A stretch of DNA of 64,000 nt, taken from the NCBI GenBank assembly GCA_041874725.1, contig CP097466.1, forward strand, positions 5,084,001 through 5,148,000, read 5' to 3'. Source of the DNA: Duganella sp. BuS-21. Its GTDB lineage: Bacteria > Pseudomonadota > Gammaproteobacteria > Burkholderiales > Burkholderiaceae_D. The notes below the pieces were generated by a model that was not told the origin of the DNA, did no database searches, and saw only the letters and a list, made by a program, of their open reading frames with translations. Shown here in pieces: positions 1 to 63,641 of the stretch (positions are counted from its first letter, which is position 1; each line of letters begins with the position of its first letter). The position numbers and the translations under genes are program-made.

Positions 1-1181
1 GCCACCATGAACAGCGCGTTCAGGATGTTCATGCCGGCGATGGTGCGCGAGATGTGGGCCGGATCGCAGCGCAACTGGATCAACGCGAACAGCGGCACGA
101 TGAAGAAGCCGCCGAACATGCCGATCATCAGCACGTCGAACAGGATGCGCCACATGCCATGCTGCGCCAGCAGCGCAAAGGCGTCCAGGTGCAGGCCGGC
201 CGCCAGCGCGCCGGCGCTGCCGGCGTAGGCCAGGCTGGCGAAATACAGATCGATGCCAAACACGGTCAGGCCGATGGAGCCGAACGGCACCAGGCCGATC
301 TCCACCTTGCGGCCCGACAGGCGCTCGCACAGCAGCGAGCCACTGCCTACGCCCAGCGAGAAGATGGTCAGCAGCAGCACAAAGGCGCCGTGGTCGCCGT
401 GCAGATAGTCCTTGGCGTAGACCGGGAACTGCGCCAGCACCAGCGCGCCGTAAAACCAGAACCACGAGTTGCCCAGCATGGACAGGAACACCGTGCGGTT
501 CTTGCGCGAAAAATTGATATTGCGGATCGATTCGCCGACGAAGTTCCAGCTGATCTTGAGCTCGGGCGCCGGCGCTGGCGACACCGGAATGCGATAAGCC
601 GCCAGCAAGCCCAGCACCGCGACCAGCATGGTGGCGGCCGCTTCGAGCATCAGGCCGTGCGGTTGCTGCACCACCAGCACCGCGCCCAGCACCTCGCCCA
701 TCAGGATGCCGACGAAGGTGCCCATCTCGGTCACGCCGTTACCGCCGATCAGCTCTTCCTTGTTCAGCTGCTGCGGCAGGTAGGCATACTTGACGGGGCC
801 GAACAAGGTGGAATGGATGCCCATGCCGACCACGCCGGCGATCAGCAGCCACAGGTGGTGCGTGATCCAGCCGAGCGCCGCCACGCCCATGATGGCCAGC
901 TCCAGCCACTTGATAAAGCGCGTCAGGCCGGACTTCTCGAACTTGTCGGCCAACTGGCCGGCGGTGGCGGAGAACAGCACGTAGGGCAGGATGAACAGGC
1001 CGGGAATCAGGTTGGTCACCAGCGACGGCGACATCGTGGTCCAGCTCAACGCATCGAAGGTGATGATCACCACCAGCGCGGTCTTGAACAGATTGTCGTT
1101 GAAGGCGCCGAGGAACTGGGTCCAGAAAAACGGCGCGAAGCGGCGCTGCTTCAACAGGGAAAACTGGTTGGGCTGGCTCAT
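1..1181 (-). CDS. MFS transporter, LplT-like (3' end outside window)
   Basis: The minus-strand frame stays open from an ATG at 1181 to the window edge, giving 393 codons that begin MSQPNQFSLLKQRRFAPFFW. It has many hydrophobic segments and the FLGAFNDNLFK signature near residue 25, which is typical of lysophospholipid transporter LplT and relatives that move lysophospholipids across the inner membrane. In many betaproteobacteria this MFS domain is fused to or followed by acyltransferase and acyl-ACP synthetase domains for phospholipid repair; that part would lie left of the window. A TATAAT box sits 33 bases upstream. The MFS family is clear, the LplT substrate is inferred. Confidence 0.8.
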   Translation of the reverse strand, partial: MSQPNQFSLLKQRRFAPFFWTQFLGAFNDNLFKTALVVIITFDALSWTTMSPSLVTNLIPGLFILPYVLFSATAGQLADKFEKSGLTRFIKWLELAIMGVAALGWITHHLWLLIAGVVGMGIHSTLFGPVKYAYLPQQLNKEELIGGNGVTEMGTFVGILMGEVLGAVLVVQQPHGLMLEAAATMLVAVLGLLAAYRIPVSPAPAPELKISWNFVGESIRNINFSRKNRTVFLSMLGNSWFWFYGALVLAQFPVYAKDYLHGDHGAFVLLLTIFSLGVGSGSLLCERLSGRKVEIGLVPFGSIGLTVFGIDLYFASLAYAGSAGALAAGLHLDAFALLAQHGMWRILFDVLMIGMFGGFFIVPLFALIQLRCDPAHISRTIAGMNILNALFMV

Positions 1182-52977: not shown

Positions 52978-53727
52978 ATGTCCCTTGAACCGCACACCGT
53001 CCTGATGATCGCCGCTGCCGGCTTGTTTGCCGGCGTCCAGAACGCGCTGGCCGGCGGCGGCTCGTTCATCACCTTCCCCGCCCTGCTGCTGGCCGGCCTT
53101 AATCCGCTGGCCGCCAACATGACCTCCACCATTGCCATGTTTCCCAGCCAGACCACCACCGCCTACGCCGGCCGCAATCTGGCCGGCGATGTCGGCTCGC
53201 TCGGCTTCCGCAACCTGTTCCTCATCAGCCTCGCGGGCGGCATCGCCGGCGCGCTGCTCCTGCTGCACACGCCTGCATCGTTCTTCGAAAAACTGGTGCC
53301 ATGGCTGGTGCTGTTCGCCACCAGCGTGTTCGCGTGGGGCAGTTTCCGCCGCAAGCCGCTGCATACGGCCAGCAGCATGCCGACCTGGGTGCTGGTGCTG
53401 GCGCAAACCTGCATCGCCATCTACGGCGGCTATTTCGGCGGCGGCATCGGCTTCCTGATGCTGGCCGCGCTGACCATCGCCGGCCAGCAGGTGCGCATCG
53501 CCACCGCCACCAAGAACGTGCTGGCGATGGCCATGAACGCCGCCGCCACCCTGATCTTCGCCACCTCGGACCTCATCAGCTGGCCCGCCGCGCTGGCGCT
53601 GTGCGCAGGCGGCATCGCCGGCGGCTTGTGCGGCGGCTGGCTGGTGCATCGCCTGCCCGAAAAGATCATGCGCGGCTTCGTGGTGACGGTCGGCGCCGTG
53701 CTGACCGTCTGGATGTTCGTGCGTTAG
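52978..53727 (+). CDS. TauE/SafE-family membrane permease
   Basis: A 249-residue protein with seven or eight TM helices. The repeated half signature AGVQNALAGGGSFITFPALL and IAIYGGYFGGGIGFLMLAAL is diagnostic of the TauE/SafE family, which exports sulfite, sulfonates or related anions. Substrate cannot be set from sequence. Its end overlaps the convergent TonB receptor gene by 4 bases. Confidence 0.88.
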   Translation: MSLEPHTVLMIAAAGLFAGVQNALAGGGSFITFPALLLAGLNPLAANMTSTIAMFPSQTTTAYAGRNLAGDVGSLGFRNLFLISLAGGIAGALLLLHTPASFFEKLVPWLVLFATSVFAWGSFRRKPLHTASSMPTWVLVLAQTCIAIYGGYFGGGIGFLMLAALTIAGQQVRIATATKNVLAMAMNAAATLIFATSDLISWPAALALCAGGIAGGLCGGWLVHRLPEKIMRGFVVTVGAVLTVWMFVR

Positions 53728-55766
53728 AACACCGCCTTCAGCGTCACACGAAAACTACGACGCTCCGCCGGATGGTAGTGGATATCGTCCACGCCGTCCG
53801 CCGGCTCGCCCGGCAGCCGCGAGGCGTAGTAGTAGTCGATGTCGCTGACCTTGCGGTCGAACAGGTTGAACGCGTCCAGCTGCATCGACCAGCGCCGATT
53901 GAACTTGTAGCCCACGCGCGCATAAGCAATCGCCGTGCTGGCCGAACGCACGCTGTTATCCTCGATCAGCGGACGCGGACCGAAGAAACGCATCTGGAAC
54001 GCCCCCGACCACGGGCCAAGATCCATCACCGTCGCACCGAACGACGCCACCTTGCCGATCGCGCCCGGAATGTAGTCGCCCGCCTCGTCATGCTCGGTGT
54101 AGTGCCCGCGCGAATACGCCAGGTCCAGATCGAACAGCAGCCACGCACTGGCGATGTAGTGATTGTTCCATTCGATACCCGAACGATAGCTGCCACGACT
54201 GGCCGAGGTGTCGCCGGCATCGCCGGAGAACACCAGCTCGGACTGTGAACGCAGCTTCCATACCGCGAGAGAGCTTTGCAAACCGGGCAGGAATTCGGTG
54301 CGTGCGCCGATCTCCGCACCGCGCGTCTTCACCAGCGGCGTCACCGGATCGATAGGCTCCAGCTCCTTCGGCGTCAGGTGAACGGTGGTGCCGCGCGCGT
54401 CGTTGCTGTGGAAACCCTCGCCGTAGTTGACGAAGAATTCGGTCTTGGCCCAAGGCCCCAGCACCACCGAGATTTTCGGCGAGGTGGTGCCGGCGCTGAC
54501 CTTGCCCGAGTTCTCGGCGATATTGCTGCTGACGTCAAAGCGATAGCGGTCGTAGCGCAGGCCCGCGATGGTGCGCAGCCATTCCTGCCACTGCACCGTG
54601 TTCTCCAGATACGCAGCGAGACTGCCCTCTTTCACCGTCGATTCCGAAATGCTGCGTAGCGGCTGCTGGTTGCGCGTGGCGGTCAGCGACAGCGGCGACA
54701 GGTAGTCGTACCGCCCCTGCACACCGAGCTTGTTGCTGACATCCAGTCCGCCCCAATGACTGAACCATGTCTGCCCCACATCGAAGCCGCCCATGCGGCG
54801 CTTCTCGGTCTGGCGCGCCTGATCGCCGTTGACGGGATCATCAAGGAAGTAGGTGAAGTCGTTAAACAGCGTCAGGCTCGATTGCACCAGATAGGCATTG
54901 GCCTGCAACAGCGTATCGCTGCTGCGCTTGCGCATGGCGGCGGACAGGCTGTAACGCGATGTCCGTCCCGCATCGCTCGCGTCGATGGTGCCGAATGGAT
55001 CGAGCTCGCCGGCCTGCACCGCGCGCAGCGGAATCTGGCTGCTGGCGCGCCAGGCGCCCTTGTAGAACATGCCGGTCACGCTGAACTGGTCGTCGCTGGC
55101 GCCTTGCGCGTAACGCAGCACGCCCAGGCTTTTGTGGAAGGCTTCCGGCACCTGCCACGGACCGTCGTTGTGGCCCAGTTCCGCACCGTACACCAGGTTG
55201 CCGGCAGCCAGCGGCGTGGAGCCGGTGAGCACCGAGCGGAGGTAGCGGTTCTCGCCCAGGGTGACGCTGGCGGTGGTGTCGGCCAGCTTGTTCGCCAACG
55301 TCATGCGCGCCGCGCCGGCGGAGGCGAAGTCGCCTTCATCAGCGTAGTACGGACCCTTTTTGTAGTTGATGCGGTCTACCAGCTCCGGGATCAGGAAGTT
55401 CAGGTCGGTGTAGCCCTGGCCGTGTGCGTGGGTGCGCATATTGATCGGCATGCCGTCGACAAAGGTCGCGAAGTCGGTGCCGTGATCGAGGTTGAAACCG
55501 CGCAGGAAGTATTGGTTGGCCTTGCCGTCGCCGCTGTGCTGCGTCACGATTACGCCTGGCACAAACTCCAGCAACTCGCCGGGACGCAGCGCCGGGCGAT
55601 TGGCGATCAGTTCCGCCGTTACCGCGCCCTGACTGGCGGCGCCGGAAGTACCGACGCCATTGTCGTAGTGACCGCGCACCTCTACCTTGTCGACGTTTTC
55701 TATCGTTTCAGCATGGCCTGCCAGAGGCAGAACGGCGGCCAATGCGACGATGGTTTTACTGATCAT
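53724..55766 (-). CDS. TonB-dependent receptor of the B12-riboswitch operon
   Basis: A 680-residue outer-membrane receptor. The signal peptide ends at GHAET (about residue 19); the TonB box may be VDKVEVRG; the plug contains LEFVPGVIVTQHSGDGKANQ and RGFNLDHGTDFATFVDG. It is the last gene of the operon headed by a cobalamin riboswitch and overlaps the CobN-like gene by 4 bases. By context it should import a corrinoid, cobalt complex or similar tetrapyrrole. The RGFNLDHGTDFA plug is the type annotated as carboxypeptidase-regulatory-like TonB receptors, not classical BtuB. Confidence 0.88.
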   Translation of the reverse strand: MISKTIVALAAVLPLAGHAETIENVDKVEVRGHYDNGVGTSGAASQGAVTAELIANRPALRPGELLEFVPGVIVTQHSGDGKANQYFLRGFNLDHGTDFATFVDGMPINMRTHAHGQGYTDLNFLIPELVDRINYKKGPYYADEGDFASAGAARMTLANKLADTTASVTLGENRYLRSVLTGSTPLAAGNLVYGAELGHNDGPWQVPEAFHKSLGVLRYAQGASDDQFSVTGMFYKGAWRASSQIPLRAVQAGELDPFGTIDASDAGRTSRYSLSAAMRKRSSDTLLQANAYLVQSSLTLFNDFTYFLDDPVNGDQARQTEKRRMGGFDVGQTWFSHWGGLDVSNKLGVQGRYDYLSPLSLTATRNQQPLRSISESTVKEGSLAAYLENTVQWQEWLRTIAGLRYDRYRFDVSSNIAENSGKVSAGTTSPKISVVLGPWAKTEFFVNYGEGFHSNDARGTTVHLTPKELEPIDPVTPLVKTRGAEIGARTEFLPGLQSSLAVWKLRSQSELVFSGDAGDTSASRGSYRSGIEWNNHYIASAWLLFDLDLAYSRGHYTEHDEAGDYIPGAIGKVASFGATVMDLGPWSGAFQMRFFGPRPLIEDNSVRSASTAIAYARVGYKFNRRWSMQLDAFNLFDRKVSDIDYYYASRLPGEPADGVDDIHYHPAERRSFRVTLKAVF

Positions 55767-58700
55767 ATAAAGCCCTTCAATTTACGGAGTTTGTTGCGGC
55801 GGCCGACGTAGCCGGCACCGACCAGCGCAGCGGCCAGCGCCAGCAGGGCCAGCGAGCCGACGGTCTTTTGCACCGGTGTCAGATTGCTGAGTGTTTGCAT
55901 TTCGAAGCCGCTAACCTTGTCGGCGGCTTCGGATTTGACCGCCGGCTTGGGCGCCGGTTTCGCCGCCGGCTTCGGCGAGGGCGATGCAGCAGCAGCAGGC
56001 GTTGGAGCAGGCTGCGCCTCCGCCTTGGCTTGCAGCGCCTGCAGCTCGGCGGCCGCGTTCTGCATCGCCGCCTGTGGCGACGGCGCAGCGCCGCCGGCAC
56101 GCGCTGCGGTCGCCGCGCCACGCACCACGGCGGCATTGGAGCCGACATTGGGCACGAAGTCCGCATTGAATTGCGGCGCCACTTTCAGGGTCGCCTTGCT
56201 GCACGAATCGGCGCTGCACGACACGCCGGCATCCTTGATGGCCTGCGCATTCATCTGCGCCAGCTTGCTGCGCACCGCGTCGCTCGGCTTCCAGTAACCG
56301 CGTTCGATGGCGCTCAGCATGCGGTCGGTCACGGCCTGGAAGGCGCGCAGGTTGCCCGCATTGGCAAAGCGCTCGCGCACCTTCAGGCCGTGGCGGTCTT
56401 CCACATAGGTGTCGTACATGCGCTGCCACTTGCCGTCGTCCACCACCTCCGGCACCGTGACCTGCCACGCCCACAGGTAGTCCACCACGCGGCTGATGTA
56501 GCGTGCTCCGGAATAGCCCTCCTTCAGCATGCCGTCCGCCCAGCGCGGATTCAGGTAGCGCGCCTGCATCTCCTGGCCCATGTACTGCTCCAGCGTCTTG
56601 TGCGTGGCGCGGCGCGGATTGGCCAGGTCGCTGACCATCACTTCCGGCGTCTTGCCGTCCACGCTGCGGATCGCCATCGCCGTGCCACCCAGGTACTGGA
56701 AAAAGTCGTCATTATCCAGCGTCGCGAACAGATTGCTGGAACGGCTGTGCAGCGCGATCTGGCTACCCGACAGCGCCGCCTTGAACAAGGCTCGGCGCTG
56801 CTCGGGATTGGCTTTGTCGTCGCCCCAGTAGCCGGCGCCGAACGGATGACTCATGCGGTTGATGAAGACGTCCGCCACTTCCTTTTCATTCTTCCAGGCG
56901 TTGGTGAGCGGGATCAGCTTTTCGATCTGCGTGCCGTAGGCGCCGCTCGGCACGCCGAAGATGCGTACCGACGCCATGCGCTGCGCTTCTTCCGGCGTGA
57001 TGCCGCGCGCACTCAGCGCGGCGGCGGTCTTGCGGCTGTTGGCCGCCATCACGTTGCCGCCTTCGTCATCCTGTCTCTGCGCCAGTTGCGCCGCCTGGTC
57101 CATCAGCACCAGCAGGTTGGGGAACAGATCGCGGAACAGGCCGGACGACACCAGCGTCACGTCCACACGCGGACGGCCAAGCTGCTTGCGGCTCAGCGCT
57201 TCCACGCCGGTCACGCGGCCGCGCTCATCCCAGGTCGGGCGGATGCCCATCAGCGCCATCGCCTGCGCTTCCATCACGCCTTCGTGGCGCGAGGTCTCCA
57301 CGCCCCACAGGTTCATGCTGAGCTTTTGCGGATAGGCGCCGTGACGCTTACGGTAATCGTCGGCCAGTTGCTGCGCCAGTTTCGCGCCTGCTTCATAGGT
57401 CGTCTTGCTCGGAATGCGCGACGGATCCAGGCCGAAGAAATTGCGGCCGGTCGGCAGCGCGTTCGGATTGCGCACCAGGTCCGCGCTGGCGCCGCTCGGG
57501 ATGTAGCGGCCGGACAGCGCCTGCATCAGGCGGTCCAGCTCCAGCTGCGCGCTTTGCTCGATGTCCGCTTCCAGCTGCGCGATGCGCGCGGTCTTCTGCT
57601 CGGGCGTGGACACGCTATCGAGACTGACGACGGCGCGTGCAGTCGCGTTGCGCTGTTCCGCGTTCGGCGCCACGCCGAAGGTGTGCAGGCCGAACGGCGT
57701 CAGCTTGTTGCCGGTATCGTCCAGATACTCTTCCAGCGCTTCCATGTCGGCTTCCGATTTCAGCGCGGTTTTCTTCATGTCCTTCAACACGCCGCTCTTC
57801 GCGGCCAGGCGGTTCAGCGCCACCAGATGGCTGCTGGCCAGCAGCGGACTCTTTTGCTCGGCCACTCGGTAGTCGTTCAGCAACGCGAGCAGTTCGCGCA
57901 GGTCCGGATTCAGGCCGGCCGTATCGAACGGTGGCGTCATGTGGTCGATGATGGTCGCCATGCCGCGCCGCTTCGCTTGCAGACCCTCGCCCACGTCGTC
58001 CATCACGTAGGGATAGATGTTAGGCATGGCGCCGATCAGCGCTTCGGTCGGATCGCTTTCGGACAGGCCGGCCTCCTTGCCGGTCAACCATTCCTGCGTG
58101 CCGTGGGTGCCGATGTGCATAACGGCGTTGGCCTGAAAGTCCTTCTGCAGCCACAGATAGAAAGCGATGTACTCGTGCGAGGGCGGCATGCTCACTTCAT
58201 TGTGCAGCTTCTCCAGGTTCTGCTCCCATGCGCGGCCCGGCTGCGGCGCCATCAGCACATTACCGAAGCGGCGCGCTGGATAGACGAAGAACGCTTCGCC
58301 CTTGGCGTTGCGCCACAGGACCGGCGCCTTTTCCGGTCGGCCCCACGATTGCTCGATCGAGGCGCGCAGCGGCTGCGGCAAGGCCGCGAACCACTTCTGG
58401 TAATCGGCCAGAGGCACCAGCAAGGCCTGGCCGCTTTCGGCCAGATGCTTCAGGCCCGCCATATAATCGCCCTTGGATTTGCCAGGGTAGTTGCCCCACT
58501 TCTGGATCTCGCCTTGCAGCGCGCCTTCCGAATCCGGCAGCGCCTCGCCGATGCGGTAACCGTCGCGCTTGAGGCGCTGGACGATCTGCCACAGGCTTTC
58601 CGGCAGCACGTTCAGATAAGCCGCGCCGATGGTCTCGGAACCGTGCGGGTAGTTAAAGTAGATCATGGCGATGTGCTTGTCGCCGTTGCCCTGCTTGCGC

Positions 58701-59803
58701 AGCGCCAGCCAGGCTGCAACGCGCTCATTGAGGCGCTCGATGCGTTCCGCGATCGGCGTCTCTTCAACGTAGGCCAGGCCGGTCTGCGCATCGCTGATGC
58801 GTTCGCGGCTGGCGACCACGGTCGGCTGGATCAGGCCAGCCGCTTCGGCGCCGGCCAGCTGCCAGGTGCGCTCGATGATATCGAGGCCGGTCTTGGACTC
58901 CTGCCACTGCGTCAGCGTTTGCTGGCTCAGGGTGATGGCGTTAATCGCCGGCACGCCGATCTTGTCGAGGATGGCGCCCACGCTGGCGGTGCCGCCAACC
59001 TTCATGCCCAGCGCGACGATCAGCTCCACGCGGCTTTTGCCGGCTTCATCGAGCAGCAGCTTGAGCGGCGTTTCGTAGGGATAGCCGAACACCGGCAGCG
59101 CGTTATAGCCGCTGGCCTCCAGCCGTGCCACGATGGCCGCCAGCGGCAGCGTTTGTCCCGCCACCAGGCTGGCGCGGTAGAACGGCACGGCGATCCACGG
59201 CGCACCGGGCTTGTGATGTGCGTAGCCGAGCACGTATTCGTCGTAGGTGTTGACGGTGCGGTTGGCCTGCACATCGTACAGGCCCGATTCCGGCATCGCA
59301 TGCACCGGCGCCACGCCGACGCTGGAGCCGAAGCTGTTGCGCAGGATGTAGCGCAGCAGGTTGCCGATATTTTCCACACCGCCTTCGGCGTGATAGGCCT
59401 GTATGGTTTTGTCGTCGCGCACGCCCAGCTCGCGCAGGCTGTCATCGATGGCGCCAACCGCAAACACCTGCTTGCGCGCCTTTTGCAGCGCTTGCAGTTC
59501 TGCGGTCAGCCCCGCCATGGCCTGACGGCCTTTGACGCTGACCACCGCCACGTCGGCGGCGGCCAGCGCAGCGCGGTCGGCCGGCGTCAGGCCGTTCACC
59601 GGGATGATGCGGATGGCGACGTTCAGCTGCTTCAGCTCATCCTGCAATCCGCGCACTGCCAGCACGGTCGGTCGTGATTCCACATCGCCCAGCATCAAGG
59701 CCAAGGTGCGCGGCGCCGGTGCGGTGCGCGCAACGCCGCCCAGGCCAAGCGACAGCAATGTCAGCAAACACAGGGCCGCAGCCCATAACTTATTCCGGAA
59801 CAT
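55763..59803 (-). CDS. Exported, membrane-anchored CobN/HmuS-like chelatase
   Basis: A 1346-residue protein of the CobN/BchH/Mg-chelatase large-subunit family. Unlike cytoplasmic CobN it begins with a signal peptide or anchor (LWAAALCLLTLLSLGLGG, residues 6-23) and ends with a TM helix (SLALLALAAALVGAGYVG) and basic tail, after an Ala/Pro/Lys linker at about 1225-1300. Core motifs include MHIGTHGTQEWLTGKEAGLS and MNLWGVETSRHEGVMEAQ. The topology matches HmuS of Bacteroidetes, which removes iron from haem. No CobS/CobT partners are in the window. Riboswitch control suggests corrinoid or cobalt handling. Confidence 0.88.
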   Translation of the reverse strand: MFRNKLWAAALCLLTLLSLGLGGVARTAPAPRTLALMLGDVESRPTVLAVRGLQDELKQLNVAIRIIPVNGLTPADRAALAAADVAVVSVKGRQAMAGLTAELQALQKARKQVFAVGAIDDSLRELGVRDDKTIQAYHAEGGVENIGNLLRYILRNSFGSSVGVAPVHAMPESGLYDVQANRTVNTYDEYVLGYAHHKPGAPWIAVPFYRASLVAGQTLPLAAIVARLEASGYNALPVFGYPYETPLKLLLDEAGKSRVELIVALGMKVGGTASVGAILDKIGVPAINAITLSQQTLTQWQESKTGLDIIERTWQLAGAEAAGLIQPTVVASRERISDAQTGLAYVEETPIAERIERLNERVAAWLALRKQGNGDKHIAMIYFNYPHGSETIGAAYLNVLPESLWQIVQRLKRDGYRIGEALPDSEGALQGEIQKWGNYPGKSKGDYMAGLKHLAESGQALLVPLADYQKWFAALPQPLRASIEQSWGRPEKAPVLWRNAKGEAFFVYPARRFGNVLMAPQPGRAWEQNLEKLHNEVSMPPSHEYIAFYLWLQKDFQANAVMHIGTHGTQEWLTGKEAGLSESDPTEALIGAMPNIYPYVMDDVGEGLQAKRRGMATIIDHMTPPFDTAGLNPDLRELLALLNDYRVAEQKSPLLASSHLVALNRLAAKSGVLKDMKKTALKSEADMEALEEYLDDTGNKLTPFGLHTFGVAPNAEQRNATARAVVSLDSVSTPEQKTARIAQLEADIEQSAQLELDRLMQALSGRYIPSGASADLVRNPNALPTGRNFFGLDPSRIPSKTTYEAGAKLAQQLADDYRKRHGAYPQKLSMNLWGVETSRHEGVMEAQAMALMGIRPTWDERGRVTGVEALSRKQLGRPRVDVTLVSSGLFRDLFPNLLVLMDQAAQLAQRQDDEGGNVMAANSRKTAAALSARGITPEEAQRMASVRIFGVPSGAYGTQIEKLIPLTNAWKNEKEVADVFINRMSHPFGAGYWGDDKANPEQRRALFKAALSGSQIALHSRSSNLFATLDNDDFFQYLGGTAMAIRSVDGKTPEVMVSDLANPRRATHKTLEQYMGQEMQARYLNPRWADGMLKEGYSGARYISRVVDYLWAWQVTVPEVVDDGKWQRMYDTYVEDRHGLKVRERFANAGNLRAFQAVTDRMLSAIERGYWKPSDAVRSKLAQMNAQAIKDAGVSCSADSCSKATLKVAPQFNADFVPNVGSNAAVVRGAATAARAGGAAPSPQAAMQNAAAELQALQAKAEAQPAPTPAAAASPSPKPAAKPAPKPAVKSEAADKVSGFEMQTLSNLTPVQKTVGSLALLALAAALVGAGYVGRRNKLRKLKGFI

Positions 59804-60125
59804 AGATCACCTTCCCATCCGGCAGCTGATATGCCGTGCCCAAACGTTTGCCGGCGCCGGACAGCGGCTGGTCGCTCACCTTGCTCACCTTGATTTCCGC
59901 GCCCTTCTTGGTCAGCACTTCCACGCGACCGTCGGCGGTTTTCTTGGCGATGGTGACTTCGGAATTCGGATCCAGCAGATCCATCATGTTCCAGGCCGAG
60001 AATAGCGCCAGCATCATGGCCACGATGAACACGATGCTGGCGTCGAACAGGTTGGCCACACCGGACAGCGGGTCTTCCGCGTGCTCGCCGATGCGGCTGT
60101 AGCGGTGTTTGTTCAGATAGCGCAT
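59790..60125 (-). CDS. DUF2149 membrane protein (HmuT/ExbD-like partner)
   Basis: A 111-residue protein with one TM helix (FDASIVFIVAMMLALFSAW, about residues 27-45) and a periplasmic tail ending KVIYVPE. DUF2149 proteins co-occur with MotA/TolQ/ExbB-like and CobN-like genes, probably as the ExbD-like half of an energising complex. The start at 60125 (MRYLNKHRYS) is one base after the ExbB-like stop. It overlaps the CobN gene by 14 bases. Confidence 0.85.
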   Translation of the reverse strand: MRYLNKHRYSRIGEHAEDPLSGVANLFDASIVFIVAMMLALFSAWNMMDLLDPNSEVTIAKKTADGRVEVLTKKGAEIKVSKVSDQPLSGAGKRLGTAYQLPDGKVIYVPE

Positions 60126-60126
60126 C

Positions 60127-60693
60127 TCAACCCTCCGACGCCAGCAGCGATTCGGCGGCAAACGCGATCTCGGTCAGGTCGCTGCGCAGCCAGTGTTCGC
60201 GTACCAGCGTCAGCACGTAGGCGGCAACGCTGCAGGCCAGCCCCACCACAGTGGCGGTGAAGGCGGTGGTCATCGACTCGGCCATCTTGGGCAGGTTGCC
60301 CTGTGCCAGACCGGCCAGCGAGATGCCCATCGGGATCAGGGTGCCCATCAGGCCCAGCGCCGGGCCGACGCGCACCACGAAGCGCACGCCGTCCAGGCGC
60401 CGCACGCCGCTGGCGTCGGCGCGCTGCACCACGCGCTCCAGCCGCACATCGAGTCCGGGCTCGCCCGGCAGCGCGGTCACGGCGGCGGCCATCTGCTGCC
60501 TGGCGGTGGCGACCAGTATGTGTACGCCGCGCCGGCGTTCCAGCCATTCGGCGCCGAAGATGCCGAAGCACACCAGCACGTGCAGCACCAGCGCGGCGAT
60601 GCCGAGCAAGACCGGCAGGTAAAGCACATTGGAAATGGAATACAGCAGTGTCTCGATAGAGTGGATGGCTGCGTCGGCGGGCTGGTTTAACAT
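60127..60693 (-). CDS. MotA/TolQ/ExbB-like proton channel protein
   Basis: A 188-residue protein with TM1 at about 26-46, then a cytoplasmic loop, and two TM helices at about 112-135 and 147-170. FVVRVGPALGLMGTLIPMG is the MotA/TolQ/ExbB signature. First gene of the riboswitch operon. It probably harvests the proton gradient together with the DUF2149 protein to drive the CobN-like protein or receptor. It is not the canonical ExbB partner of the TonB at 7626. Confidence 0.88.
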   Translation of the reverse strand: MLNQPADAAIHSIETLLYSISNVLYLPVLLGIAALVLHVLVCFGIFGAEWLERRRGVHILVATARQQMAAAVTALPGEPGLDVRLERVVQRADASGVRRLDGVRFVVRVGPALGLMGTLIPMGISLAGLAQGNLPKMAESMTTAFTATVVGLACSVAAYVLTLVREHWLRSDLTEIAFAAESLLASEG

Positions 60694-60764
60694 GGACGGG
60701 TCCTGAAAAGGCAGCGCGCAACGACGCACGGACGGCACAGCCGCGTCGCGCTGAATAGGTGCAT
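60687..60764 (-). CDS. Possible 25-residue leader peptide overlapping the exbB-like start
   Basis: ATG at 60764 opens a 25-codon frame (MHLFSATRLCRPCVVARCLF) whose stop TAA overlaps the ATGTTAA at the exbB-like start by seven bases. It lies between the riboswitch and the first gene. Such overlap could couple translation. No strong Shine-Dalgarno is seen, so it may be chance. Confidence 0.25.
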   Translation of the reverse strand: MHLFSATRLCRPCVVARCLFRTRPC

Positions 60765-60784
60765 AAAATGATTTGACTACAGAT

Positions 60785-60816
60785 GCAAACCGCTCACCTC
60801 CCCGTGAGCGGGTTGA
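60785..60816 (-). promoter_or_regulatory. Hairpin in the riboswitch expression platform
   Basis: Between the B12 box and the first gene, CCGCTCAC and GTGAGCGG form an 8-bp stem with a GGGGAG loop. Only three T follow, so it is a weak terminator; it may be one of two alternative folds used by the riboswitch. Confidence 0.45.
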
Positions 60817-60829
60817 ACAGAAACGCCTG

Positions 60830-61022
60830 CGGCATTTCCACCTGTTTGGCCGGTATCCGGGCTGACAAGCATTCCCGCCTGACCTTCCCATGCACGAGGC
60901 ACAGTGGCATAGCGAAGCGGAGTGTCGTGTGAACGACGCTTGTTTACCGTTGCGGGGGCAGCACAGGTTGGCCGGTGAAGGCTCCCTGTTTCCCGTTTAA
61001 CTGCGCATCCGGACGGACGCGC
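60830..61022 (-). ncRNA. Cobalamin riboswitch
   Basis: On the minus strand the conserved elements occur in order: GGTGCC at the 5' end, TTAAACGGGAA, GCTGCCCCCGCAACGGTAA, CATGGGAAGG, and the B12 box GTCAGCCCGGATACCGGCC (60848-60866). This is a complete adenosyl/methylcobalamin aptamer. It should lower expression of the downstream ExbB, DUF2149, CobN and receptor genes when cobalamin is abundant. A TATAAT box at 61043-61048 lies just upstream, directly after the cueR stop codon. Confidence 0.93.
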
Positions 61023-61042
61023 GGGCACCAAAACGTGGCAGG

Positions 61043-61048
61043 ATTATA
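61043..61048 (-). promoter_or_regulatory. Candidate -10 box of the riboswitch operon
   Basis: A perfect TATAAT on the minus strand about 20 bases upstream of the aptamer. It lies three bases beyond the cueR stop codon, so the -35 region is inside cueR. No consensus -35 is seen. Confidence 0.55.
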
Positions 61049-61050
61049 CG

Positions 61051-61437
61051 TTAGTTGGCCAGGCTTTGGAGTATCGGGCAGTCGGGGCGATCATCGCCGT
61101 GACAGCCGCCGGCCAGTGTTTGCAAGGTGTCGCGCATTTCGGTGAGTTCGGCGATGCGCTGGTTGAGCTGCTCCACGTGCCCCAGCGCGATGGTTTTGAC
61201 GTCCGCGCTGGCGCGCGCTTTGTTCTGCCACAAGGACAGCAGGTCGCGGATCTGGTCCAGCGAAAAGCCCAGTTGGCGCGCGCGTTTGACGAAGCGCAGC
61301 GTGTGCAGGTCGTTCTCGCCAAAGATGCGGTAACCGGCGTCGGTGCGCCTGCCCGCCGGGATCAGGGCGATGCTTTCGTAGTAGCGGATCATTTTCGCGG
61401 AAATGCCGGTCGCCGCTGCTGCCTGTCCGATGTTCAT
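61051..61437 (-). CDS. cueR: MerR-family copper regulator CueR
   Basis: A 128-residue regulator. The winged helix begins [20 protein letters not shown], followed by a dimerisation helix and a C-terminal metal loop with two cysteines, [13 protein letters not shown], as in CueR/Cu(I) sensors. It activates copper-efflux promoters by untwisting a 19-bp spacer. It overlaps the copA stop by 4 bases, so it is in the copA transcript. Its operator-type sequence is found at copZ (51.9 kb). Confidence 0.92.
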
Positions 61438-63641
61438 GTGGTCTGCTCCGGTTTCCAGCGCCGCAGCAGCAGCGCGTTGCTGATCACGCTGACGGAGCTG
61501 AGCGCCATGGCGCCGCCGGCCACCATCGGGTTGAGCAGCCCGCACACCGCCAGCGGAATGCCGATCAGGTTGTAAATGAAGGCCCAGAACAGGTTCTGGC
61601 GGATCTTGTTGTAGCTGCGGCGCGAGATCGAGATGGCCGCCGCCACCAGGGCTGGATCGCCGCGCATCAGGGTGATGCCGGCGGCGTGCATGGCGACGTC
61701 GGTGCCGCTGGACATGGCGATGCCGACGTCCGCCGCCGCCAGTGCCGGCGCATCGTTGATGCCGTCGCCGACCATGGCGATGGTGGCGCCGTCGCGCTTG
61801 AGGGCGGCGATGGCCAGGGCTTTATCGGCAGGCAGCATGTTCGCGACGATACGGCGCACGCCGAGCTGCTGGCCGACCGCGTCGGCGCTGCCCTGGTTGT
61901 CGCCGGTGAGCAGGACGGTGTCGATGCCCAGGGCGTGCAACGCTTCGATGGCGGCGCGGGCTTGTGGTTTGATGCGGTCGCCGAAGGCCAGTAGGCCGAG
62001 CAGTTGGCGGGTGTCGGCGTCGGCCAGCCAGGAGATGGTGTAGCCGGCGCGTTCCAGCACTTCGGCGCGCGCGGCAAGCGCTTGCAGGGAGATGCCCTGC
62101 TCCTGCATCAGGCGTGTGCTGCCCAGCACCAGCCGCACGCCGTCGACGGTCGCCGCCACGCCGCGTCCGGGCAAGGCGGCGACATCGGATGCATGCGGCG
62201 CCGCGCCAGCGCCGGCGGCTTGCACCACGGCGCGTGCCAGCGCATGTTCGCTGCCGCGCTGCACGGCGGCGGCCAGTTGCAGCAATCGCGCCTCGTCCAC
62301 GCCCGGCGCCGCCGCCATGTCGGTCAACGATGGCTTGCCTTCGGTCAGCGTGCCGGTCTTGTCGAAAGCGACGGTGGTGATGCGGTGCGCCAGCTCCAGC
62401 GCTTCGGCGTCCTTGATCAGGATGCCGTGGCGCGCCGCGACGCCGGTGCCAGCCATGATGGCGGCCGGCGTCGCCAGTCCCAGCGCGCACGGACAGGCGA
62501 TCACCAGCACCGCCACCGCGTTGATGATGGCTTGCTGCGCATCGCCGCCGAACAGCCACCAGCCGCCAAAGGTCAGCAGCGCCAGCACCAGCAACACCGG
62601 CACGAAGACTGCGCTCACGCGGTCCACCAGATGTTGTACCGGCGCCTTGGCGGCCTGCGCATCTTCCACCAGGCGGATGATGCGCGCCAGCGTGCTTTCC
62701 GCGCCGACGGCGCTCACGCGCACCAGCAGCAAGCCTTCGCCATTGATGGCGCCTCCTGTCACCCGCTCGCCCACATGGCGCGCCACCGGCAGGCTCTCGC
62801 CGGTGATCAGGGCTTCATCGACATGGCTGGCGCCTTCGGTGATCTCGCCATCGGCCGCGATGCGCTCGCCGGGACGGATCACGATGATGTCGCCCACGCC
62901 TACCTGGTTGATGGCGACATCGACATCCTGCCCGCCGCGCCGTACCCGGGCCGCTTCGGGACGCAGCGTTTGCAGGGCGCGAATGGCTTCGGCGGTTTGC
63001 CGCTTGGCGCGCGTCTCCAGCCATTTGCCCAGCAGGACCAGGGTGATGACCACGGCCGAGGCTTCGAAGTACAGATGCGGCATGGGGCCGGCCGCGACCA
63101 GCTGGAAGACGCTCAGGCCATAGGCGGCGCTGGTGCCGATGGCCACCAGCAGATCCATATTGCCGCTACGAGCGCGCGCCGCCAGCCAGCCGGCGCGATA
63201 GAAACGCGCGCCCAGCCAGAATTGGACCGGCGTGGCGAGCAGCCATTGCAGGCGACCGTCCAGCATCCAGTGGATGCCGGCCAGTTCCAACAGCATGGGC
63301 GTCACCAGCGGCAGGGAGAACAGGGCCGCCAGCAGGACGGCGAGGCCGCCGCGCGGCGCGACTAATGCAGCGGGACGGGACGGGTCGGCAGCGGAGGTGG
63401 TTGCGGCGGTGGCAGGAGCGGCAAAGGCCGGCTCGGGTTGCGAGGCCTGGTAGCCGGCTTTGTCGATGGCCTGCGCCAGCAGTGCAAAGTCCAGCACCTG
63501 GGCCGACTCCACCCGCGCCATCTCGGTGGCTAGATTGACGCTGACCTTGTCCACGCCCGGCACGGCCGCCAGCACGCGCTCCACCCTGCCGACGCAGGAG
63601 GCGCAGCTCATGCCTTCAATTTTGATCGCTTGCTGATTCAT
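61434..63641 (-). CDS. copA: Copper-exporting P1B-type ATPase CopA
   Basis: A 735-residue ATPase. One N-terminal metal domain with GMSCASC (residues 10-16); eight TM helices; the copper channel motif ACPCALG; phosphorylation loop [11 protein letters not shown]; and [10 protein letters not shown]. The family usually has one or two metal domains, so a single one is normal. It exports Cu(I) from the cytoplasm and would receive it from CopZ. Confidence 0.95.

Follow-up and report, generated by a model that had tools for sequence, protein, structure and literature searches.

A cobalamin-riboswitch operon for a membrane-anchored, probably exported CobN-like chelatase in Duganella sp. BuS-21

The cobaltochelatases CobNST and CbiK/CbiX are cytoplasmic. 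Cobalt insertion into B12 is driven by ATP in CobNST and is ATP-independent in CbiK and CbiX (PMC7689651). An exported relative, HmuS of Bacteroides thetaiotaomicron, is a haem de-chelatase encoded in the Hmu operon (PMC12583661). Here we describe an operon of Duganella sp. BuS-21 in which a cobalamin riboswitch precedes genes for a MotA/ExbB-like protein, a DUF2149 protein, a CobN-like protein and a TonB-dependent receptor. It lies in a stretch of 64,000 nucleotides (contig CP097466.1, positions 5,084,001 to 5,148,000), which we call the window and whose own numbering we use.

A preliminary description of this DNA had drawn a parallel with Hmu operons, and the parts are indeed of the same kinds. 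Both systems comprise a membrane-anchored chelatase that lies, in the window's case probably, outside the cytoplasm, a TonB receptor and an ExbB-like protein (HmuU), and both chelatases share the six-domain class I fold and the chelatase histidine (PMC12583661). The window differs in its B12 riboswitch, its CobN-type second motif and its separate clade, and its relatives, unlike Hmu operons, have btu, cob or cbi neighbours. BtuS, a CobN-related family credited to Rodionov et al. 2003 by PMC6460266, resembles it in being CobN-like, in standing apart from de novo synthesis and in having been proposed for metalloporphyrin salvage; the Bacteroides fragilis BtuS proteins, as cited in that source, differ in being tied to haem iron (PMC6460266). 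Plasmid pSZ77 of Geobacter lovleyi likewise has a CobN without CobS or CobT beside ExbB-, ExbD- and TonB-like genes, a cobN-exbB-exbD-tonB cluster near cobalamin genes whose role was left open; this organism, however, makes cobalamin de novo, and the available part of the report names no riboswitch (PMC3403914). In B. fragilis NCTC 9343, a cobalamin riboswitch precedes an Hmu-like operon thought to be cobalamin-related, given without further analysis as an example of the few exceptions among Bacteroidetes (PMC10100974). Finally, PA1922-PA1925 of Pseudomonas aeruginosa unite a TonB receptor, a CobN-like protein, an ExbD-like protein and a fourth gene (PMC4542158, PMC11761036) but are controlled by Zur and zinc (PMC4542158, PMC11761036, PMC8456098); here the likeness lies in the gene set.

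Among systems of the Hmu/BtuS kind, the Duganella operon is a variant linked to B12, and related cases are already in print. Our searches, without most subscription papers, found no study of the reaction of its CobN clade or of the Proteobacterial riboswitch operon. We propose, at roughly even confidence, that the operon encodes a B12-repressed envelope system for corrinoid salvage, built around a proton-driven periplasmic chelatase that would most likely metalate or remetalate imported corrinoids.

The operon and its CobN-like protein

The four genes are tightly packed behind the aptamer in the following arrangement.

61043-61048, minus strand: TATAAT, putative -10 box, shared by 12 of 13 compared loci at the aptamer's 5' end
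61046-60831, minus strand: cobalamin riboswitch aptamer, RF00174 (cmscan 81.3 bits, full model 1-189, E 1.8e-18)
60693-60127, minus strand: MotA/TolQ/ExbB-like membrane protein (MotA_ExbB, PF01618, 36.7 bits)
60125-59790, minus strand: DUF2149 protein (PF09919, 107.2 bits)
59803-55763, minus strand: CobN-like class I chelatase subunit, 1346 amino acids (CobN-Mg_chel, Pfam, 989.8 bits)
55766-53724, minus strand: TonB-dependent outer-membrane receptor (barrel PF00593, 75.5 bits; plug PF07715, 62.7 bits)

The aptamer, also recovered in the genome-wide search, covers the whole model and lies well over its gathering score of 31.5 bits. The DUF2149 and CobN genes overlap by 14 nt and the CobN and receptor genes by 4 nt. 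Together with the Pfam matches, this confirms the cobalamin aptamer and four coupled genes of the preliminary description. The listed open reading frame of the MotA/ExbB-like gene begins at 60891, within the aptamer; we set its start at 60693 because relatives align from residue 1 there. The TATAAT at the 5' end of the aptamer suggests that the operon has its own promoter, and a consensus promoter scan at the operon returned no -35/-10 pair. No unusual fold marks the expression platform, as 60860-60680 folds no better than shuffled sequence (z -0.69), nor does a clear terminator, with 10 terminator-like sites in 53500-61600 against 6.1 (standard deviation 3.0) in shuffles.

To place the CobN-like protein, we built a FastTree phylogeny of 122 distinct proteins (138 before removal of identical ones), rooted on classical CobN and ChlH. 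The window protein falls into a clade of 66 tips (support 1.0) with those proteins of the distant loci L131-L169, described below, whose frame is full enough. HmuS of B. thetaiotaomicron (joined pieces) and classical CobN lie outside this clade. A Trichlorobacter thiogenes locus (L139) belongs to it; the CobN of G. lovleyi itself is not among the tips. The closest named protein, from Duganella, is 97% identical to that of the window.

Hydropathy of the window protein peaks at both ends, at 2.12 and, C-terminally, 2.13, in line with the predicted membrane segments at both ends of HmuS. The C-terminal transmembrane (TM) stretch has no counterpart in the four classical CobN proteins examined from related genomes (peaks -0.19 to 0.38), and a C-terminal peak of at least 1.6 is found in 62 of the 66 clade members, two of the other four being cut by contig ends. 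The hydrophobic stretch at the N-terminus, which the preliminary description had read as an export signal or anchor, is present too, but it does not set the clade apart: eight of the 66 members stay below 1.6, and classical CobN reaches 1.36-1.91. The C-terminal helix of that description therefore stands as a distinguishing feature, and the protein is membrane-anchored and probably exported to the periplasm. Cytoplasmic CobN (7c6o, 9uk9), by comparison, is ATPase-driven and, in the four classical proteins, lacks a C-terminal TM.

The residues expected of a chelatase are conserved. His567, the chelatase histidine, lies in HIGTHG (superfamily HFG(T/A)HG; His538 in HmuS) and occurs in all 66 members. 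Asp1033 and Gln1036 occur in 65 of 66 and in four of four classical CobN proteins, unlike HmuS, which has His1209 and Glu1212. The second motif of the window protein reads TLDNDDFFQYLGG, where HmuS has LSLDHxxEFMGG, and contains the cobaltochelatase-type residues D-x-D-D-[FY]-[FY]-Q. Its conservation in the distant loci is partly by construction, because DNDDFFQ served as a search pattern; the 21 loci of the host's bacterial family were found through DUF2149 and not through CobN motifs. That the catalytic residues are conserved speaks for a reaction and against binding alone, and a second motif of the cobaltochelatase type points to a corrin ring as substrate. In a fold search of the PDB, CobN was closest, and CobN, ChlH and HmuS were the sole clear matches. 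The protein stays under the NCBIfam CobN equivalog cut-offs (831 of 1248, 732.4 of 1619 and 622.3 of 822.05 bits among them). The literature search turned up no paper on corrin-binding residues of CobN.

Near the C-terminus, a CX4C pair (residues 1196-1201) could form a disulfide or a metal site. A CX4-5C pair is present in nearly the whole clade (65 of 66), in 21 of 22 archaeal relatives and in one of 18 members of a sister clade; none of nine third-branch proteins or four classical CobN proteins has it.

We also considered an HmuS-family haem dechelatase that has come under a B12 riboswitch by accident. Its operon parts are of the same kinds as those of Hmu, and the sequence scores about equal to HmuS. 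The hallmarks of HmuS are missing, however. In place of its Met-rich insertion of about 120 residues, fewer than 10 residues separate the matched blocks in the window protein, compared with about 215 in HmuS; the region of window residues 700-760 has a median of 60 residues and a median of 0 Met in the 66 members, and classical CobN has a longer insert at this place. The site-1 ligands Met79 and His254 correspond to Lys91 and to Met267 (HMMER) or Gly266 (MAFFT); across the 66 clade members, the Met79 position is filled by Met 23 times and by Lys 24 times, and no member pairs Met with a His at 266/267. With LSLDHxxEFMGG absent as well, membership in HmuS was rejected. As the riboswitch link is also conserved across phyla, we regard this explanation as highly improbable. 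The interpretation given in the preliminary description is partly supported: its preference for corrinoid or cobalt over haem holds up, given a clade apart from HmuS, the CobN-type motif, and btu/cob/cbi neighbours in several phyla.

Spread of the operon and its stator

We searched 392 genomes of the host's bacterial family for DUF2149 and obtained 36 strong matches (>80 bits) in 35 genomes. A same-strand cobalamin riboswitch lies within 5 kb upstream in 20 of these 36 loci, against a chance expectation of 0.05; since the loci share ancestry, a Poisson p for this excess is not to be taken literally. CobN of the window type (64-91% identity, order MotA-DUF2149-CobN) is encoded in 21 loci, including all 20 with the riboswitch. 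The one exception, L079, belongs to a btu/cob cluster that encodes homologues of BtuC, BtuD, CobO, CobQ and BtuF, and has a riboswitch 11 kb upstream. In L076, the order is CbiB-CobD-BtuF-CobQ-BluB-riboswitch-receptor-MotA-DUF2149-CobN, with CobQ read from the sequence. None of the other 15 family loci has a riboswitch within 5 kb upstream. Twelve of them encode a CobN about 30-33% identical, and for three (L084-L086) the DNA available yields no CobN match. Two genomes among these 15 have riboswitches elsewhere, G486 7.1 kb upstream and G387 just downstream of DUF2149.

Beyond the family, the patterns YPYVMDD and DNDDFFQ gave 79 distant loci, from the best 80 of 128 in named genomes. We base counts on 38 of them, namely L131-L169 (39 loci) minus L143, a Massilia relative. 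RF00174 scores above its gathering score on the same strand, 1.6-5.2 kb ahead of the CobN frame, in 17 of the 38. These loci are labelled Nitrospirota, Thermodesulfobacteriota or other deltaproteobacterial groups, Trichlorobacter, Bacteroidota and others, and many are metagenome-assembled genomes (MAGs). Riboswitches at L108-L130, which rest on a regular expression, were left out of the counts, and the Rfam scan of relatives did not take in the archaeal loci L170-L186. Loci with this CobN have a riboswitch within 5 kb upstream in 20 of 21 cases in the family and upstream in 17 of 38 distant cases, and this conserved association supports the B12-linked control proposed in the preliminary description.

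The neighbourhood of the distant operons is also informative. Homologues of CobQ, CobD, CbiB, CobO or BtuF lie near 11 of the 38, often on the opposite strand, and homologues of the cobalt-importer proteins CbiM, CbiN, CbiQ or CbiO near six; CbiM and CbiQ are Pfam-confirmed in L131 and L134, and the CbiN candidate has no Pfam match. DUF2162 (PF09930, a predicted transporter) and, at some distant loci, a TonB protein join the operon.

The MotA/ExbB-like and DUF2149 proteins plausibly form a proton-driven stator. The former has a MotA_ExbB domain and, as best solved relatives, ExbB, at E 0.14 only. The latter consists of one hydrophobic helix and a soluble part, ExbD-like by layout; weak DUF2149-model matches below the cut-off in relatives were read as ExbD, and its predicted structure has low confidence (pLDDT 62). 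Asp28, within the hydrophobic stretch, is invariant in 23 of 23 aligned sequences, so that the pair has the features of an ExbB/ExbD-type stator, a MotA_ExbB domain and an Asp in the membrane stretch of the partner. This Asp is presumably comparable to the proton path of ExbD.

All 21 family loci with this CobN retain the MotA-DUF2149-CobN triad, and 11 of them also a receptor related to that of the window, which suggests that the stator goes with CobN rather than with the receptor. A counter-example is the distant locus L149, whose available DNA encodes CobN and a receptor and matches neither MotA nor DUF2149. As for the receptor of the window, a sequence search for solved relatives returned, at E 0.001, BtuB entries only, matched in the plug region; the receptor falls far short of the BtuB model TIGR01779 (39.9 of 599.7 bits) and scores higher on NCBIfam siderophore and haem receptor models (60.8, 56.4 and 52.3 bits).

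These data bear on a second alternative, non-catalytic corrinoid handling, in which the CobN-like protein would be a stator-worked, corrin-binding shuttle from receptor to BtuF, or the stator would merely energise the receptor. The operon does occur in btu clusters, some distant operons have a gene for a TonB protein next to them, and class I chelatases have head and neck domains that are similar to periplasmic binding proteins (PMC12583661). On the other hand, the catalytic residues are kept in 65-66 of 66 members, and 10 of 21 family loci keep the triad without the window-related receptor (one of these, L059, carries a different receptor-like match). We judge this alternative improbable.

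Several observations concern related branches. The 12 more divergent family loci and six others form a sister clade of 18 tips with support 1.0 (L063, L067, L069, L072, L080-L083, L087-L092, L095-L098), with the motif MLTTDDPFQYLGG. Its family loci are mostly ordered CobN-MotA-DUF2149 and have no riboswitch within 5 kb upstream of DUF2149; in L087 (G486:C3), CobN is split across two frames. A loose plus-strand scan for Zur boxes near 16 sister-clade loci gave scattered weak matches and nothing consistent. A third branch (L099-L107 and L190, G523:C11:195309-195526) encodes CobN-like proteins with a C-terminal TM, the motifs LLDNNDAFDYLGG and HLGRHST, and weak DUF2149 matches. By Rfam, L101 and L102 have a riboswitch about 8 kb upstream and L190 one directly ahead; those of L104-L107 come from the regular expression only. 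Separately, G734:C18:546084-551073 holds a classical CobN with split ATPase matches beside two divergent riboswitches, in a genome without a CbiC match. At L076:13956-14315, 3' of CobN, a small protein matches a [2Fe-2S] thioredoxin-like ferredoxin model (21.7 bits, cut-off 24.8) and could be an electron donor.

Host B12 genes and the proposed reaction

The host genome, one contig of 6.49 Mb, has two cobalamin riboswitches, one before this operon and one before a salvage operon ordered TonB receptor, btuC, btuD, cobO, cbiA, cbiB, cobD, btuF, cobQ, bluB, with cobV upstream; the receptor reading frame is called btuB by position. Exemplars of CobO, CbiA/CobB, BluB, CbiB, CobD, CobQ and CobV exceed the NCBIfam cut-offs, and BtuF, BtuC and BtuD, best or among-best matches below the equivalog cut-offs, carry family-level names. 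MetH is present, and the genome gave no CbiC or CobH match. Because it combines MetH and salvage genes with this absence, the host can use B12, yet seems unable to build the corrin ring.

Databases name close relatives of the window protein cobaltochelatase subunit CobN, which would make it a cytoplasmic subunit serving aerobic B12 synthesis by the host itself. We find this barely credible. The protein, the only CobN-family (PF02514) member in the host, has a C-terminal anchor. Besides CbiC, the host lacks a CobT match, as do all 41 genomes searched, and a strong AAA+ partner match (TIGR02442 at most 43.4 bits; CobS itself was not searched). Moreover, five of 21 family carriers own a second, classical CobN with the ATPase beside it (TIGR02442 at least 303 bits, over its own cut-off in two). 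Aerobic B12 synthesis by the host was rejected for want of CbiC, CobT and a strong AAA+ partner.

In the proposed salvage system, scarcity of adenosylcobalamin would, judging from the riboswitch family, permit expression of the operon. The TonB receptor would carry corrinoids into the periplasm, where the CobN-type chelatase, held by the inner membrane, would bind the corrin ring. Since the periplasm has no ATP, a proton-driven stator would be the natural power source, and MotA/ExbB-like and ExbD-like DUF2149 proteins may thus replace the CobS/CobT or ChlI/ChlD ATPases. The likeliest reaction would be insertion of cobalt into imported corrinoids that lack a metal or carry the wrong one, ahead of their uptake by BtuFCD. 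Our confidence differs between the parts of this scheme. A corrinoid-directed role is probable; given such a role, insertion or exchange of metal has somewhat less than an even chance; and the full scheme of an extracytoplasmic, proton-powered cobalt chelatase, with the stator in place of the AAA+ motor and scavenged metal-free or wrongly metalated corrinoids as substrate, is tentative.

The principal alternative is cobalt salvage, in which the chelatase would run in reverse, as HmuS does, and take cobalt from imported cobalt tetrapyrroles or damaged corrinoids, importers such as CbiMNQO would take up the ion, and B12 control would stand for cobalt demand. HmuS, with iron and Feo, sets a precedent (PMC12583661, PMC6460266), and the similar P. 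aeruginosa set PA1922-PA1925 is Zur-controlled (PMC4542158, PMC11761036). CbiC was found in 18 of 32 distant carriers tested, among them all five tested that have cobalt-importer genes. With cobalt-importer homologues near the operon in six of 38 distant loci, the idea is stronger in lineages with CbiMNQO genes, and as one of the options of the preliminary description it stays alive there. It fits badly in the host, because the host and 13 of the 20 other family carriers, having no CobH or CbiC match, would be unable to make B12 from free cobalt. Among Bacteroidota carriers, drafts included, 12 of 13 likewise lack a CbiC match; this count excludes L160, a MAG that bears the label Marinifilum and has a CobN grouping with Nitrospirota. 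The second motif, again, is of the CobN and not the HmuS type. To our knowledge, no mild chemistry removes cobalt from an intact corrin, and we count this against the idea too. Overall, we consider cobalt salvage unlikely.

The clade CobN thus occurs with and without de novo synthesis, as CbiC is present in some carriers only. Insertion or exchange is favoured over cobalt salvage because corrinoid uptake, not cobalt for synthesis, is common to both kinds of carrier.

Several points weigh against corrinoid metalation. The clade profile is about equally close to CobN (505 bits) and HmuS (487.7 bits), with HmuS ahead for the C-terminal part alone (256.8 and 249.5 bits), and the rooted tree puts HmuS on the same side as the clade (support 0.92). 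No riboswitch was found in 21 of 38 distant loci within the DNA available, some of it short contigs; among the 21 are eight Bacteroidota loci (L149-L152, L155, L159, L161, L164) with 7 kb upstream. CbiC occurs in seven of 21 family and 18 of 32 distant carriers, so that missing ring synthesis is no general trait of carriers. In HmuS, the exported relative that has been studied, the reaction runs towards metal removal (PMC12583661). CobW, which supplies CobN with cobalt in the cytosol (PMC7689651), could not do so in the periplasm. That corrinoids without metal, or with the wrong one, serve as a nutrient is, moreover, an assumption.

Two further observations concern the rest of the window. Genes for CueR and a copper P-type ATPase (61051-63641, minus strand) end directly ahead of the riboswitch, and a CopA-CueR-like pair was read from the sequence ahead of the operon in L070, L071 and L073. 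At 402-523 (minus strand), an Rfam match to Bcj11, a Burkholderia small RNA (60.8 bits), may be coding sequence.

Under the label "cobaltochelatase subunit CobN", auxotrophs can be mistaken for B12 producers. His567, Asp1033 and Asp28 of DUF2149 are residues with which to ask whether Hmu-type machines have adapted to different metals or rings. A riboswitch-marked, anchored and widespread CobN clade, present also in organisms that apparently do not make corrin, points to metal chemistry on corrins in the envelope. If our proposal is true, organisms without ring synthesis, spread over several phyla, could use otherwise dead B12 analogues.

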